This document shows, one piece after another, positions 16,419-21,557 of a DNA stretch of 40,925 nucleotides. The stretch lies in assembly GCA_017551725.1 (NCBI GenBank), contig JAFZKY010000043.1, forward strand, positions 1 through 40,925. The letters are read 5' to 3'. The DNA is from Bacteroidales bacterium (lineage in GTDB: Bacteria > Bacteroidota > Bacteroidia > Bacteroidales > WCHB1-69). A program made the position numbers and the translations under genes. The notes under the pieces are model-generated. The model made no database searches. It was not told where the DNA came from and was given only the letters and a program-made list of their open reading frames with translations. Each line of letters starts with the position of its first letter. Position 1 is the first letter of the stretch.

Positions 16419-16426
16419 TACTTTTG
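16419..16426 (+). promoter_or_regulatory. -7 box for the signalling operon
   Basis: TACTTTTG matches TAnnTTTG. It lies 26 bp before the in-frame ATG at 16453 and 56 bp before the ATG at 16483. It excludes the upstream non-ATG start at 16405, which would precede the promoter. Confidence 0.7.
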
Positions 16427-16482
16427 CAACTTCAATTGGAACAGTCCTGATAATGGGATTGTTACCATTTGGGGAAATGAGT

Positions 16483-18588
16483 ATGAAAAAGAAATCGGGC
16501 AAACGGTCGTATGCCGGGCTGTGGATCATTCTGGTGGCCGCGGTGGCGTTGGAAGCCACCACGTGCATCCAGTATTTCTACAGCCGTTCCACCATTCGTG
16601 CGGAGGCGGAGCAGCGTGCGAAAAGCGAGTTGCGCCGTGCGGAACTGGAAATCAATGTGGTGACGGCCCAGATGGAGTCGGCGGTGAAGATGCTGGCCAT
16701 GCTGGCCGAACGGTACGTGGACACCCCGGATTCCATCTTCGCGGTCACGCGGGCGGTGGTGGGCTGTCTGGACAATGTCTCCAGCCTGGGTATAGCGTAC
16801 GTGCCGGATTATTTCCCGCAGTATGGACACTGGTTTGAGGTGTGCAGCAGCCGCGAACTGATGGATGGCGAACGGAAGATCTACACACGGCAGATCGGGG
16901 GCGCCGACCATGATTATTTCCAGACCGAATGGTTCCATAACGGCCTGACCATCGACACTTGCTGCTGGAGCGAACCTTATTATGATGAGCTGGGGGCCCG
17001 ACAGATGGTGGTCAGCTGCTCGTACCCGATTCGCAACGCCAAAGGTGAAATCGTGGCGGTAGCGCTGGTGGATTTGTCGTTGGAATATCTGAAAACCATC
17101 TCCGAATACCTGCAGGTCTATGCCAACAGCTATGTGTCGATCACTTCCAGTCGCGGACTGGAAATAGTGCCCTCGCCGGACACGGCCGCCGGACGCAAAT
17201 ATCACATCTTTGATGAGGAGATTGATGCTACCGGATGGCATATATCAATCATCATTCCCGAAGAGGTTATCTATGAGGATTTGAAACGTATTGGATTGAT
17301 TGTCTTGGCGTTGATGCTGATAGGATTGGGTGTGTTGGTGTTCATCATCTATCGCTCTGGACGGGATATGGTGCGCCTGATCAAATCTACTGCCCAGAAC
17401 GAGCGTATGGAGGGCGAGTTACATATTGCCCGTGCCGTCCAGATGGCCATGCTGCCCAAGTTCCAAAAGGAGAACAATAAATCAACATCGTTACCTTGCG
17501 ATATTTACGGACTTGTCAATCCCGCCAAGGAAGTGGGTGGCGACTTGTATGATTTCTATGTGAAAGAGAATACGCTTTTCTTTTGTGTCGGCGATGTCAG
17601 CGGCAAGGGCGTTCCCTCTTCCTTTGTGATGGCCACCACGCGGTCGCTTTTCCGAGCCATCTCGGCGCATGAACGGGACGTGGCCACTATCGTCAGCCAA
17701 ATGAACGATGCGATGGCGGACATGAATGAACTGAATATGTTTGTCACGTTTTTCCTTGGCAAACTGGATTTGAAGACGGGCGTGCTCCACTATTGCAATG
17801 CGGGGCATAATCCCTCCGTGTTGGTGAAGCAAGGTTCCCGTTGTGACAGGCTACCCACGATTCCCAATCTTCCGTTGGGCATTGTCTCTGGATATGCCTA
17901 TACGCCGCAAACCATCACTTTGCAAAACGATGACAAACTGTTCCTCTATACCGATGGCTTGACCGAGGCGGAAAACCGGGATAAGTCCTTGTATGGAGGA
18001 GAACGCATGATGGAAGAGATCGTCCGCATTGAAAACTCGGTCGAGGCGGACAAACGTACCGCGCGACATCTGGTTGAAGCTATGCTGGAAAGTGTCAACT
18101 GCTTTGTGGACGGCGCCGAGCAGAGCGACGACCTCACCATGTTGGCCGTTCACTACTTGAAACAGTCTGACAATAAGGTGGATGATGTATCTATGCGCAG
18201 CACCCTTGTCATGAGCAACGACATTCAGCAAATCCCCACGCTTGCCGAGTGGATTGAGAGCCTTGGTGTGCCCTCTGCCTTGAAGATGAACATCAATCTT
18301 GCATTGGAAGAAGTCGTTGCCAATGTCATGCTGTATGCCTATCCGCACGACAAGAGCGGCAAGGTGTTGATTGAGGCGGAAAAAGAAGAGAGCCGGATTA
18401 CGTTCGTCGTTTCCGACAGCGGAATCCCGTTCGACCCGACCAAGCAACCGCCTGTCGATACTACCCTTGGACTGGAGGACCGTCCGATAGGAGGCTTAGG
18501 AATACATCTGGTCCGTCAGATAATGGATCAAGTCCAATACCGCCGGGAAGGCGATAAAAACATTCTCACCCTAATCAAGAAAATATAA
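16483..18588 (+). CDS. Membrane sensor: extracytoplasmic Cache-like domain - PP2C (SpoIIE/RsbU) phosphatase - HATPase (RsbW-like) kinase
   Basis: About 701 residues from ATG 16483 (MKKKSGKR); ATG 16453 and 16477 are possible. Membrane helix ~11-33, extracytoplasmic Cache/PDC-like sensor ~34-265 (WSEPYYDELGARQMVVSCSYPI, GEIVAVALVDLSLEYL), second helix ~272-295. The PP2C/SpoIIE phosphatase (~330-545) has metal-binding motifs EVGGDLYDFY, GDVSGKG, YTDGLTEAE and SDDLTMLAV. The C-terminal GHKL ATPase has the N-box LALEEVVANVMLYAYP, SDSGIPFDP and GGLGIHLVRQIMD. Such proteins set the phosphorylation state of a STAS antagonist, which is encoded 12 bp downstream. Carrying both phosphatase and kinase, the protein could catalyse both directions of the switch. 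Domain calls are secure; signal and partner are inferred. Confidence 0.9.
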   Translation: MKKKSGKRSYAGLWIILVAAVALEATTCIQYFYSRSTIRAEAEQRAKSELRRAELEINVVTAQMESAVKMLAMLAERYVDTPDSIFAVTRAVVGCLDNVSSLGIAYVPDYFPQYGHWFEVCSSRELMDGERKIYTRQIGGADHDYFQTEWFHNGLTIDTCCWSEPYYDELGARQMVVSCSYPIRNAKGEIVAVALVDLSLEYLKTISEYLQVYANSYVSITSSRGLEIVPSPDTAAGRKYHIFDEEIDATGWHISIIIPEEVIYEDLKRIGLIVLALMLIGLGVLVFIIYRSGRDMVRLIKSTAQNERMEGELHIARAVQMAMLPKFQKENNKSTSLPCDIYGLVNPAKEVGGDLYDFYVKENTLFFCVGDVSGKGVPSSFVMATTRSLFRAISAHERDVATIVSQMNDAMADMNELNMFVTFFLGKLDLKTGVLHYCNAGHNPSVLVKQGSRCDRLPTIPNLPLGIVSGYAYTPQTITLQNDDKLFLYTDGLTEAENRDKSLYGGERMMEEIVRIENSVEADKRTARHLVEAMLESVNCFVDGAEQSDDLTMLAVHYLKQSDNKVDDVSMRSTLVMSNDIQQIPTLAEWIESLGVPSALKMNINLALEEVVANVMLYAYPHDKSGKVLIEAEKEESRITFVVSDSGIPFDPTKQPPVDTTLGLEDRPIGGLGIHLVRQIMDQVQYRREGDKNILTLIKKI

Positions 18589-18600
18589 AACCATCAATAT

Positions 18601-18903
18601 ATGACTACTGAGATTACAGCAAATGGCACGCAGTTGACGGCTGCATTCCGCGGCCGGTTGGACACGGCTGCCGCCGTGCAGACTGCGGAAGATATAAAAC
18701 CGCTGTTAGAGGCCACGAACCGGGAGATCATTCTTGATTGTTCCGAACTGGAATATATCTCCTCTTCCGGCTTGCGCATCTTTGTGACGATTCGCAAGTC
18801 GGCGGCGGAACATGGCTGCAAAGTGATAGTGCGACATTTGAATGAGGATATCTGCCAGGTTTTTATCATGACAGGTTTTATTAGTTTATTTGAAATACAG
18901 TAA
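18601..18903 (+). CDS. STAS-domain anti-sigma factor antagonist (SpoIIAA/RsbV-like)
   Basis: A single-domain, 100-residue cytoplasmic STAS protein. The core motif ILDCSELEYISSSGLRIF (about 44-61) places the conserved phosphorylatable serine at S56, immediately before Gly57, as in SpoIIAA/RsbV (SSG). In partner switches the unphosphorylated form binds its target and the phosphorylated form is released. It lies 12 bp after the phosphatase/kinase gene, and its TAA overlaps the ATG of the next gene by one base (18901-18905), implying translational coupling to the alarmone-synthetase gene. Confidence 0.92.
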   Translation: MTTEITANGTQLTAAFRGRLDTAAAVQTAEDIKPLLEATNREIILDCSELEYISSSGLRIFVTIRKSAAEHGCKVIVRHLNEDICQVFIMTGFISLFEIQ

Positions 18904-19994
18904 TGGACACATTGGATTTGCATAACCAGCTTATTCTGGATGAATATGACGCTTGTATGCCTGTGCTGCAGCGCTTTGAGCGTGTGTTGCACCATATTCT
19001 GTCGGATGTGCTGGACAAGAATGGATTGGCGGTCATCGCCGTGACCACCCGTATCAAGCAGAAGGACAGCCTGGCCGGCAAGTTGGCGGCCAAAGGACAT
19101 AAATACAGTTCGTTGACTGATGTGACCGATGTTGTCGGCGCCCGTATCATCACCTTTTATACGGATGAGGTGGACCGCATTGCGGCTGTGACGGAGCAGT
19201 CGTTTGACATTGACTGGGAAAACTCCGTGGACAAGCGACGCTTGCATGATCTGGACAGTTTTGGCTACAACTCGCTGCATTATATTTGCCGGTTGCCCCG
19301 GACGATGATATACGACGCGGACTGTCCCCAGTTGAACGAGATGCGATTCGAGTTGCAGATACGCACAAACCTGCAGCACGCATGGGCTTCCCTCAACCAT
19401 GACATTGGCTATAAGACCGGCGTGGAGATCCCGCATGAGTATGTGCGGCAGATAAACCGGCTGGCAGGTATGCTGGAGATGGTGGATGACGAGTTCAGCC
19501 GTATCCGCACGGAAATCAACGACTACCGCCGGCGTGTGCAGCAGTTGGTGCAGAACGACAAGCTGGAAGATGTGCTGTTGGACGGTGATACCTTCAACAG
19601 TTTCCTGCAGGTGCGACCGTTCGAAAAGCTCAACCGCCGCATCGCCGCCATCAATCAGGCGGAAATCCGGGAAGTGCCGTTGGGTGGCTATCTGAAAGTC
19701 CTCATCGCGCTTGGATGCCGTACGTTGGACGATGTGGTCCAGCTTAGCAAGAAGTATTCGGAAGATGCGTACGCCTTGGCCCGTTACCAGTTGGGCAATA
19801 CGGACCTGGACATCATAGCCTCTTCCGTGGGCATACAAAACATTTGCATCGTCTGCATCTTGGAACAGGGAGGCGGCAAGATTGGCCTGACACGGTTGTT
19901 CAACGCCCTCAACGGAGAGGGCCCGCAAAACGCTTTGTTGGCCGAACAGACATACAAGCAGGCCTTGAACATGCCTTTTATGAGCCGATCATGA
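18903..19994 (+). CDS. RelA/SpoT-family nucleotide pyrophosphokinase with unknown C-terminal extension
   Basis: Predicted to transfer pyrophosphate from ATP to GDP/GTP, making (p)ppGpp, or to another acceptor. The 363 residues include an N-terminal synthetase domain with the expected motifs: ATP-site RxKxxS...K (R50, K52, S56, K60), DVVGARII (D76), G-loop FGYNSLHY (Y122), and FELQIRT (E150, Q152) followed by QHAWASLNHDIGYK. There is no HD hydrolase and no TGS/ACT domain, so it is a small-alarmone-synthetase type. A helical segment (~180-220) and a ~140-residue C-terminal extension of unknown function follow. Its start overlaps the STAS stop. A separate HD hydrolase is encoded two genes downstream. 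The fold is certain; the product (alarmone or tRNA-modifying ToxSAS) is undecided. Confidence 0.9.
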   Translation: MDTLDLHNQLILDEYDACMPVLQRFERVLHHILSDVLDKNGLAVIAVTTRIKQKDSLAGKLAAKGHKYSSLTDVTDVVGARIITFYTDEVDRIAAVTEQSFDIDWENSVDKRRLHDLDSFGYNSLHYICRLPRTMIYDADCPQLNEMRFELQIRTNLQHAWASLNHDIGYKTGVEIPHEYVRQINRLAGMLEMVDDEFSRIRTEINDYRRRVQQLVQNDKLEDVLLDGDTFNSFLQVRPFEKLNRRIAAINQAEIREVPLGGYLKVLIALGCRTLDDVVQLSKKYSEDAYALARYQLGNTDLDIIASSVGIQNICIVCILEQGGGKIGLTRLFNALNGEGPQNALLAEQTYKQALNMPFMSRS

Positions 19995-20030
19995 GTGTTT
20001 TAATCAGTAACAACTATTGAGCCATCATAG

Positions 20031-20870
20031 ATGAAACCGATTCTTATTGACCTGAACGATTATGTGCGCACCGGCGAAGGAGCCAACGGCGCCAGCTATG
20101 ACCACAAAACCGACAAGTCGGTAATGCTGAAAATGTATTTCCATAATTTTGAGGCGGCCCGACTTGAACTGGATATGGCGCAGAAGGTGTATGCTTCGGG
20201 AATCCCCACGCCCGAGCCCGGGGATTTGGTGACCGACGGGGAGCGGATAGGCATACGATTCCGCCGCATTGAGGGAAAGAAGTCCTATTCCCGGGCCTGC
20301 GGCGACAATCCCGAGCGGACGGAGGAGTACGCCTGCGAGTTCGCGCGGTTGTGCAAGCGCCTGCATGCCACGCATGTGGATACCACCCAGTTTGAGAATG
20401 TCAAGGATCGTCTTTATGCGCTGTTGGAAAAAAATCCTTTTTTTACCGATGAACAAAAAGAGAAGATACGGGCGTTCATTGCCGATGCCCCCGATGCCGA
20501 CACGGCCATCCACGGCGACTTGCAGTTTGGCAACAGCATCTTTGTAGAGCGGGATGGTGTCCGCACACCCTATCTGATCGATCTCGGCGATTTCTGCTAC
20601 GGTTATCCGATGTTCGATGTGGGCATGGTCTATCTCACCTGCAAATTGAACGACGAGGAGTGGATACAGGTGCAGTCCCATATGTCCAAAGCCACGGCGG
20701 CCCGCTTTTGGGATGCGTTTGCCCGCGAGTATTTCGGTCCCGACGCGGATATGGACGCCGTGGAGAAAGAGGTGAGGATTTACGCAGGATTGAAAACCTT
20801 GATTGTTGAGCGTGACACGCACAGGCCCATGCCGGAGTTTCGCGCCATGTTGGAGGGTACAGTCTATTAA
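20031..20870 (+). CDS. Aminoglycoside-phosphotransferase-fold kinase (TIGR02172-like)
   Basis: A 279-residue cytoplasmic protein with the APH/choline-kinase fold. It shows a small N-lobe with GEGANGASYDH (nucleotide loop, ~15-25) and the lysine segment SVMLKMY. The Brenner catalytic loop is HGDLQFGN (161-168) and the metal-binding motif is IDLGDF (183-188), corresponding to the DxD/DFG position. The overall sequence resembles the family named after Fibrobacter succinogenes paralogues (TIGR02172). The natural substrate is unknown, and drug resistance should not be assumed. It sits 36 bp after the RelA-like gene and 14 bp before the HD hydrolase gene, i.e. within the same operon. Confidence 0.85.
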   Translation: MKPILIDLNDYVRTGEGANGASYDHKTDKSVMLKMYFHNFEAARLELDMAQKVYASGIPTPEPGDLVTDGERIGIRFRRIEGKKSYSRACGDNPERTEEYACEFARLCKRLHATHVDTTQFENVKDRLYALLEKNPFFTDEQKEKIRAFIADAPDADTAIHGDLQFGNSIFVERDGVRTPYLIDLGDFCYGYPMFDVGMVYLTCKLNDEEWIQVQSHMSKATAARFWDAFAREYFGPDADMDAVEKEVRIYAGLKTLIVERDTHRPMPEFRAMLEGTVY

Positions 20871-20884
20871 AGAAATGAGAAATT

Positions 20885-21472
20885 ATGGCAAATAAAAAGA
20901 TGGATACCGACCTGCTCGACCGCGCCATCGTGTTCGCGGTCAGGGCGCACCACAACACGGAACGCCGGGGCAAGGGGTTCCCGTATATTGTGCATCCGAT
21001 GGAGGCGGTGGAGATAGTGGCTACCATCACCTCCGACCAGGAGTTGTTGGCCGCCGCCGCTTTGCATGACACGGTGGAAGATACTGATGTCACGGTGGAA
21101 CAGCTGCGCCAGGAGTTCGGCGACCGCATTGCCTCGTTGGTGCAGGATGAAAGTGACAAGTCCATAGAAGGAGTGAGCGAGGCCGACAGCTGGCACGAGC
21201 GCAAGCAGGTCGCCATCGACCGGCTGGCCGCGGCTCCCCGTGACGCGAAGATCGTGGCAATGGGCGACAAGCTGAGCAACATGCGCGCCATTGCCCGCGA
21301 CTATGCGATGAAAGGCGACGCGTTATGGCAGATATTCCATGTTACCGACAGGGCCTCGCACGAATGGCATTACCGGGGCTTGGCCTCCTCGCTCAGCGAG
21401 TTGCACGACACGTTTGCCTACCGGGAGTTTGTGGCTTTGGTGGAACAAGTGTTCGGTAGGGAAGAGGAGTAA
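20885..21472 (+). CDS. HD-domain (p)ppGpp hydrolase, Mesh1/SpoT-like (small alarmone hydrolase)
   Basis: A 195-residue, single-domain metal-dependent phosphohydrolase. All SpoT/Mesh1-type residues are visible: RRGKGFPYIVHP with H37, LHDTVEDT with H61, D62, E65 and D66, and GDKLSNMRA with D128 and N132. It therefore looks active and would remove the 3'-pyrophosphate from (p)ppGpp. The C-terminal ~50 residues are helical. It is the last gene of the five-gene operon and is followed by a probable terminator at 21513-21557. Pairing with a separate synthetase in one transcript recalls split Rel modules and ToxSAS/hydrolase toxin-antitoxin pairs. Confidence 0.9.
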   Translation: MANKKMDTDLLDRAIVFAVRAHHNTERRGKGFPYIVHPMEAVEIVATITSDQELLAAAALHDTVEDTDVTVEQLRQEFGDRIASLVQDESDKSIEGVSEADSWHERKQVAIDRLAAAPRDAKIVAMGDKLSNMRAIARDYAMKGDALWQIFHVTDRASHEWHYRGLASSLSELHDTFAYREFVALVEQVFGREEE

Positions 21473-21512
21473 CAATTTACAATTAACAATTAATATTAAT
21501 AATTGGGATTGG

Positions 21513-21557
21513 AGGGTGTTTGAGCCGTTTGACCAGCGGTCATGAATCACCCTTTTT
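21513..21557 (+). terminator. Probable terminator of the signalling operon
   Basis: Outer stem AGGGTG (21513-21518) / CACCCT (21548-21553), inner stem TGACC (21530-21534) / GGTCA (21538-21542), then TTTTT to 21557. The stem is interrupted, so confidence is moderate. Upstream, 21473-21500 is a run of ACAATTAA-type AT-rich sequence. Confidence 0.5.

Follow-up and report, generated by a model that had tools for sequence, protein, structure and literature searches.

The closest described counterparts of the gene set that we analyse here are partner switches that feed a nucleotide second-messenger synthetase: in SiaABCD of Pseudomonas, the phosphatase SiaA and the kinase SiaB set the phosphorylation of the STAS-like protein SiaC, which binds and activates the diguanylate cyclase SiaD of the same operon, with phosphorylation deciding, and the STAS proteins HsbA and BgrV control the diguanylate cyclases HsbD and BgrR, again with phosphorylation deciding (PMC8457831). 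Our subject is a five-gene operon-like set located on a contig of 40,925 nt from a Bacteroidales bacterium (JAFZKY010000043.1, the whole of which we call “the window”), where the genes of a partner switch are followed by those of an alarmone synthetase, a kinase and an alarmone hydrolase. Judging from sequence comparison, we lean, with modest confidence, towards reading this set as a membrane partner switch that has an alarmone synthetase/hydrolase cycle as its output. The routes that lead from extracellular cues to the (p)ppGpp enzymes, beyond ribosomes and metabolic proteins, are poorly known; in Escherichia coli, the anti-sigma factor Rsd acts on SpoT. The new element, compared with the known partner switches that feed second-messenger synthetases, is the presence of alarmone enzymes as the proposed output; if the switch does gate the alarmone synthetase, we know of no earlier partner switch with such an output, and no description of one was found in the literature searched, which was mostly open-access and did not include preprints. 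A review of STAS-only proteins mentions neither ppGpp nor alarmone in its main text (PMC8256260).

The window is contig C44 of an assembly of 2.32 Mb that is 81% complete. Five open reading frames (ORFs) of the forward strand span positions 16477-21472:

16477-18588, forward strand: membrane sensor with the domain order transmembrane segment, Cache/PDC, transmembrane segment, SpoIIE-type PP2C, HATPase_c_2 (RsbW-type kinase); 703 aa, by Pfam
18601-18903, forward strand: STAS-only protein of the RsbV/SpoIIAA type; 100 aa, by Pfam and TIGR00377
18903-19994, forward strand: RelA/SpoT-domain synthetase (hereafter SYN) with a C-terminal region of about 150 aa; 363 aa, by Pfam
20031-20870, forward strand: APH-fold kinase of the TIGR02172 family; 279 aa, by Pfam and NCBIfam
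20885-21472, forward strand: HD-domain hydrolase of the Mesh1/SAH type (hereafter HYD); 195 aa, by Pfam HD_4

The gene order and the intergenic gaps of 12, -1, 36 and 14 bp, as given in the first-pass annotation of this DNA, agree with both the ORF coordinates and the domain searches; the tightest junction in the window is the one between STAS and SYN, where a single base is common to the STAS stop codon and the SYN start codon. The remark, made in the same annotation, that the operon lacks a sigma or anti-sigma gene also holds: none occurs among the five genes or the typed flanking genes (a DHOR cytochrome on the reverse strand and trpS downstream), a genome-wide search for them not having been made.

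By analogy, the set resembles SiaABCD, in that a STAS-like protein set by a phosphatase and a kinase would control the nucleotide second-messenger synthetase of its own operon; it differs from SiaABCD in that the messenger of the latter is c-di-GMP, SiaC belongs to DUF1987 and not to PF01740, and its kinase is a separate protein. Neither an APH kinase nor a hydrolase of its own is known to us from the SiaABCD operon. HsbR-HsbA-HsbD of Pseudomonas, where the phosphatase and kinase domains are united in the protein HsbR, and BgrSTUWV-BgrR of Sinorhizobium are alike in the control of a synthetase by STAS phosphorylation (HsbA, BgrV), but they have a diguanylate cyclase output and no alarmone enzymes; the output gene of our cassette is of the RelA_SpoT family, as opposed to the GGDEF diguanylate cyclase of SiaABCD and HsbA-HsbD. 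With the sigma-B switch RsbU-RsbV-RsbW, the cassette has in common the PP2C, STAS and HATPase modules with their conserved active residues, but a sigma factor as the output gene is not found, and PP2C and HATPase form a single protein in clade A and in the majority of clade C loci (i.e. in two of the three groups of SYN loci that are introduced below).

The first-pass annotation had reported the key catalytic residues as present, and our alignments confirm them and extend their conservation to the whole cassette family; the functional roles of the conserved positions of SYN, HYD, PP2C, HATPase, STAS and the APH kinase are those that we presume from knowledge of the families. In the sensor protein, Pfam recognises SpoIIE (PF07228, 2e-47), HATPase_c_2 (PF13581, 5e-27) and MCP-like_PDC_1 (1e-14), with dCache_1 only below the cut-off, and hydrophobic segments near residues 12-35 and 264-296 flank the Cache/PDC domain (residues are counted from the ATG at 16477; a second in-frame ATG at 16483 is an alternative start). 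The metal-binding aspartates of the PP2C domain (D356, D373, D551/D552), and E611/E612, N616 and D647 of the HATPase together with its glycines (N-box and G boxes), are at least 97% conserved in an alignment of 40 sequences. The STAS protein (Pfam STAS 3e-14, TIGR00377 above the cut-off) carries its presumed phospho-acceptor, Ser55, in the motif YISSSGLR, and this predicted phosphorylatable serine is kept in 39 of the 39 SYN-linked STAS sequences aligned (locus L064 left out, L056 included; L and G numbers denote our loci and genomes). The amino-acid-binding motif of dCache domains expects an arginine two residues before a tryptophan; in the alignment, this arginine before the conserved tryptophan is missing from the window protein, and we therefore claim no ligand for its Cache domain.

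On the alarmone side, RelA_SpoT (PF04607, 4e-17) is the sole Pfam family above the cut-off in SYN, HD, TGS and ACT domains being absent, and residues R50, K52, S56, K60, D76, Y122, E150, Q152 and R154 are invariant in 24 sequences and at least 97% conserved in 48; by sequence, SYN has the domain and the catalytic residues of a small alarmone synthetase (SAS). When the SYN profile is compared with the Protein Data Bank (PDB), chains of RelQ/RelP-type synthetases match at 3e-17 to 4e-16, and chains 7ztb and 9erv, which we take to be CapRel-type, match at 0.005 and only at profile positions 24-164, a result that favours SYN being a nucleotide synthetase. The PDB match is confined to the synthetase part; the C-terminal region of about 150 aa matches no PDB chain and, in 24 members, no Pfam family, apart from scattered weak matches, for instance in three members to the C-terminal domain of the RNA polymerase alpha subunit (at best 0.018). 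It is this additional region, along with the recurring partner-switch neighbours, that sets SYN apart from RelQ/RelP. HYD (Pfam HD_4, 5e-20) is a single domain with the R, H, HD, ED, D and N residues of the SAH/Mesh1 enzymes, of which R27, H37, H61, D62, E65, D66, D128 and N132 are at least 97% conserved in 43 sequences; aligned to SAH structures, as SYN is to RelQ/RelP-type enzymes, it has the same catalytic domain and residues. The APH kinase (Pfam APH 6e-19; TIGR02172 at 233.1 bits against a cut-off of 228.2) retains the HGD...N and IDL.DF motifs across cassette members, and a sequence search at E 0.1 found no relative of it in the PDB.

The conservation of the gene set is the evidence on which our reading chiefly depends. 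SYN occurs at 384-813 bits in 36 of the 104 genomes of the window's family (with weak matches in a further three, 39 in all at E <= 0.001), and at more than 390 bits in 9 of the 393 genomes of an order sample (32 match at E <= 0.001), two of these nine belonging to the window's family and seven being distributed across four other families; the order is Bacteroidales by the names of the GTDB contig records, and the identity of the 393-genome set in the SYN and HYD searches is taken from the listings. HYD orthologues (at least 136 bits) occur in 34 of the 104 family genomes, the matches at E <= 0.001 in 98 of the 104 being for the remainder mostly the HD domain of the long Rel, and in the order sample HYD is found at E <= 1e-30 in the same nine genomes as SYN (9/393). 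In the family, 33 genomes have both SYN and HYD, three have SYN only (G086, G016, where the contig ends inside SYN, and G102), one, 68% complete, has HYD only (G026), and 67 have neither. The PP2C query matches in 65 of the 104 genomes, i.e. in 36/36 with SYN and 29/68 without it; Fisher tests, in which kin are treated as independent, give 2e-22 for SYN-HYD and 3e-10 for PP2C-SYN. In G100 and G084, HYD is kept on a different contig from SYN, so that the association is one of co-inheritance and more than adjacency. In many Bacteroidales genomes, as sequence homology shows, the five genes have stayed together or are inherited as a set.

The prospect, raised at first pass, of conservation across Bacteroidota has been borne out in part: adjacency is not limited to the source genome, and the set is co-inherited in many Bacteroidales genomes, while the phylum sample (395 genomes) holds, besides the source genome, distant SYN matches only (22 at E <= 0.001 including its own; the best outside match has 152 bits and 35% identity, and one match spans residues 13-328 with 31% identity). 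Within the genomes searched, the cassette does not extend beyond the order Bacteroidales. Thirteen stretches of 8-16 kb around distant SYN relatives, from the same order (L081-L085, L095-L096) and from outside it (L093, L094, L097-L100), gave no profile match for PP2C, HATPase, STAS or APH. Among them, only L095 has a weak HYD-like neighbour: at L095:6558-9739, a weakly HYD-like 196-aa gene overlaps the gene of an 864-aa protein with a SYN-type domain, perhaps another synthetase/hydrolase pairing. No plasmid or phage home for SYN was found: among the 38 plasmid and 19 phage records that match, none exceeds 80% of the length and none reaches 60% identity.

We have scored the surroundings of 49 SYN loci (36 from the family, 7 from the order sample and 6 from further named genomes, L024-L029, added from GTDB contigs), counting as a neighbour any gene on the same strand with its centre within 6 kb and typing the genes with profiles built for this analysis. 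The partners found are HYD in 44 loci, HATPase in 40, PP2C in 39, STAS in 39 (PP2C and STAS together in 38), APH in 29, an amino-acid-type ABC transporter in 14 and a DAGK/YegS-type lipid kinase in 10. STAS lies directly 5' of SYN (-4 to +64 bp) in 24 loci, is separated from it by the lipid kinase in 10 (L063, L064, L068, L071-L074, L076, L078 and L079; called by Pfam in L063 and by profile in the other loci), lies downstream in 5 and is missing from the same strand in 10. Of the STAS-less loci, L054 opens at the end of a contig, the contig of L061 measures 6.3 kb, and in L056 the partner-switch genes, with the lipid kinase beside STAS, adjoin on the opposite strand; at L056:8758-9747, a gene for a PrsW-type membrane protease is situated between the SYN genes and this divergent HATPase-PP2C-STAS-DAGK set. 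The genomes of nine of these ten loci were searched whole (G084, G085, G067, G100, G203, G386, G102, G024 and G090; G109, the genome of L061, was left out), and a short-frame STAS and a HATPase_c_2 were found in 9/9.

The SYN tree (48 sequences, L064 left out) resolves three groups, each behind a branch with support of 99, 99 and 97, which correspond to clade labels that had been chosen beforehand from layout and identity; a locus with an unreadable layout was counted in A on its identity or else placed in B. Clade A (18 rows) has the layout of the window, PP2C/HATPase-STAS-SYN-APH-HYD, where readable; clade B (25 rows) typically has separate HATPase and PP2C genes, STAS, often the lipid kinase, SYN and HYD, often with an amino-acid ABC transporter; clade C (5 rows) has SYN-HYD-APH-PP2C/HATPase-STAS in L059 and L062 and variant layouts in L057, L060 and L066. 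In clade A, as in 4 of the 5 clade C loci, one gene encodes both the HATPase and the membrane PP2C. The STAS tree, built from 54 rows and only 97 columns, requires 3 label changes, compared with 13.4 for shuffled labels. The window's genus holds clades A, B and C, and A and B also occur in other families, a distribution suggestive of cassette transfer. When 14 cassette-less homologues and the genome's own Rel are included, the SYN proteins of the cassette fall on one side of a branch with SH-aLRT 99, in a tree where many of the outside branches are long. The ATPases of the ABC transporters near clade B loci (L072:10558-11646, L064, L065, L091 and others) have a conserved C-terminal domain of about 110 aa, without a Pfam match in the one tried; the idea that this domain is a worn-down HATPase found no support (hhalign probability 0.5%).

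Natural fusions occur within the alarmone half of the set: SYN and HYD form a single 559-aa ORF in L058 (6265-7944), with the synthetase first, i.e. in the reverse of the long Rel order, and HYD is fused to the TIGR02172-like APH kinase in one ORF of 469-478 aa in L087 (6686-8098), L088, L089 and L090. Because of these fusions, SYN, HYD and the APH kinase are taken to belong to one process; a SYN-STAS fusion was found in none of the 49 loci. Taken as a whole, the gene set looks like one system and is probably a mobile cassette, and the link of the switch to the alarmone enzymes is well supported by genomics.

In the mechanism that we propose, a ligand at the periplasmic Cache domain would shift the kinase/phosphatase balance on Ser55 of STAS, and one phospho-form of STAS (the unphosphorylated one, by analogy with SiaC) would bind SYN and alter its activity, perhaps via the SYN C-terminal region. 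HYD would act as a dedicated eraser that holds the signal low and makes it reversible, and the APH kinase may act on or beside the hydrolase step; the cassette would feed a further signal into (p)ppGpp-like signalling, apart from the long Rel, whose gene lies elsewhere in the genome. With kinase and phosphatase joined in one membrane protein in clade A and in 4 of the 5 clade C loci, STAS would be the natural mobile output, and on sequence grounds we favour a STAS-SYN contact over a HATPase-SYN contact, although such a contact, like any role of the C-terminal region, is a guess. A further step, which we regard as possible but rather doubtful, is that the cassette is a mobile, self-contained private-alarmone system, where the membrane-tethered switch gates SYN directly, the hydrolase is dedicated, the kinase edits the nucleotide or the hydrolase, and the messenger, possibly not ppGpp, is insulated from the long Rel.

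Several observations weigh against the proposed link. STAS is not beside SYN in the loci where it is downstream or behind the lipid kinase; SYN and the switch genes lie apart in five loci (L069, L070, L075, L091 and L092); in L057, the stretch has no HATPase and the PP2C is more than 6 kb away; L067 (G085) has the order HATPase-PP2C-SYN-HYD without STAS, the only STAS of the genome being on another contig; and in L077 (G084), the HATPase is 6 bp upstream of SYN, with neither STAS nor PP2C in 15 kb and the only short-frame STAS on another contig. The PP2C-STAS module is also re-used beside other gene sets, and adjacency alone therefore does not identify the target of STAS. In addition, kinship among the genomes inflates the statistics, and the source genome is incomplete, with sigma and anti-sigma genes sought in the operon and its typed flanks. 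The hypothesis of the first-pass annotation, that the phosphorylation state of STAS controls SYN, thus keeps the conserved set, the operon free of sigma genes and the position of STAS directly 5' of SYN in about half of the loci; the STAS-SYN contact is a conjecture, and the layouts of clades B and C and of G084 and G085 differ from the one that had suggested it.

The layouts of G084 and G085 are what would be expected if the wiring were like that of RsbW, where the HATPase would bind SYN and hold it inactive until SYN is released by competition from dephosphorylated STAS for the HATPase; the fusion of HATPase to PP2C suits a kinase/phosphatase of STAS better than a free sequestering protein, and the position of STAS directly 5' of SYN in 24/49 loci also speaks against such wiring, which we consider unlikely. 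It is quite unlikely, in our estimate, that the genes are merely co-transcribed, i.e. that switch and alarmone enzymes respond to one stress with no contact between them and STAS targets a distant anti-sigma factor or something else: PP2C-STAS modules are common and adjoin unrelated genes, the two halves are unlinked in the five loci named above, and the source genome has a separate HATPase_c_2 frame, but the set has been retained through repeated re-arrangement, with tight STAS-SYN junctions in clade A, and every one of the 36 SYN genomes has a PP2C match. The least probable of the alternatives, in our judgement, is that of a tamed toxSAS, where SYN would be a toxic or defence-type enzyme ((pp)pApp synthesis or tRNA modification) that HYD neutralises, as ATfaRel does FaRel, with the switch timing its release. 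SYN does match the PADLOC candidate defence family PDC-S33 (1e-17, residues 26-163), the homologue that scores best among the 14 cassette-less ones (with 40% identity across 57% of SYN) is from a phage-like Bacteroides finegoldii plasmid, and the pairing of a synthetase gene with an adjacent SAH-type hydrolase gene parallels faRel-aTfaRel (PMC11782079). Against this stands the SYN profile, which fits the RelQ/RelP-type chains far better than the CapRel-type ones, together with the membrane partner switch of the cassette, a component that, to our knowledge, has been described neither for FaRel-ATfaRel nor for other toxSAS modules. The plasmid gene, which encodes a 357-aa homologue of (p)ppGpp synthetases at L121:4989-6062, is located one small gene from a terminase, with terminase and portal genes near, and the wider SYN family thus has phage-borne members.

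The source genome contains two RelA_SpoT genes, SYN and a long Rel (a 714-aa frame on contig C19), whose HD part matches HYD at 31%; a table in a 2011 survey of RSH proteins marks Rel and RshB for the 8 Bacteroidia genomes sampled, the third mark of the row not being assignable (PMC3153485). PF01740 occurs in two places, the STAS of the operon, which is the only short-frame STAS seen in this genome, and a 573-aa frame that is probably, by its length, a SulP-type transporter. Apart from the HATPase of the operon, PF13581 occurs in a 171-aa frame on contig C57 (a short HATPase_c_2 frame at C57:11767-12111, in L101), which could be another partner of STAS and in that case would count against our reading; a similar short frame, at 44-54 bits, is present in 8 of the 9 other genomes searched whole, G085 being without it. 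Paralogous PP2C-STAS modules of the same organisms lie beside a phosphopantetheinyl transferase gene (L105:6822-11263) and a nonribosomal peptide synthetase (NRPS) gene (L112:7087-16001), where partner-switch control of a natural-product cluster is possible. Alginate-export-like proteins are found beside such modules above the Pfam cut-off in L109 and L115 and below it in L105 and L106, and amino-acid-type ABC transporters in L107, L108 and L110.

Two weak features of the forward strand border the operon:

16419-16426, forward strand: TAnnTTTG element, candidate promoter; exact match, weak alone
21513-21557, forward strand: hairpin AGGGTG...CACCCT followed by TTTTT, possible terminator; weak

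The single promoter and single terminator proposed at first pass are present as motifs and plausible, but neither is significant against chance. The TAnnTTTG element, which we take to be a Bacteroidota-type -7 box, is no proof of a promoter by itself, because such elements number 19 in the window against 14.1 expected (sd 3.5); the hairpin has a folding energy z of -1.4, 19 of 200 shuffles fold equally well, and it is missing from the output of the terminator scan.

For the biology of these bacteria, the cassette would offer a direct path, open to experiment, by which a sensor in the periplasm could act on an alarmone synthetase and hydrolase, and it would extend the partner-switch-to-second-messenger principle from c-di-GMP to alarmones. 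The natural architectures, i.e. the fusions, the split genes and the loci with a missing STAS, can be used to work out the wiring of the system. In the organisms that carry the cassette, as the conservation of its genes suggests, an external signal may directly set the alarm level of the cell.

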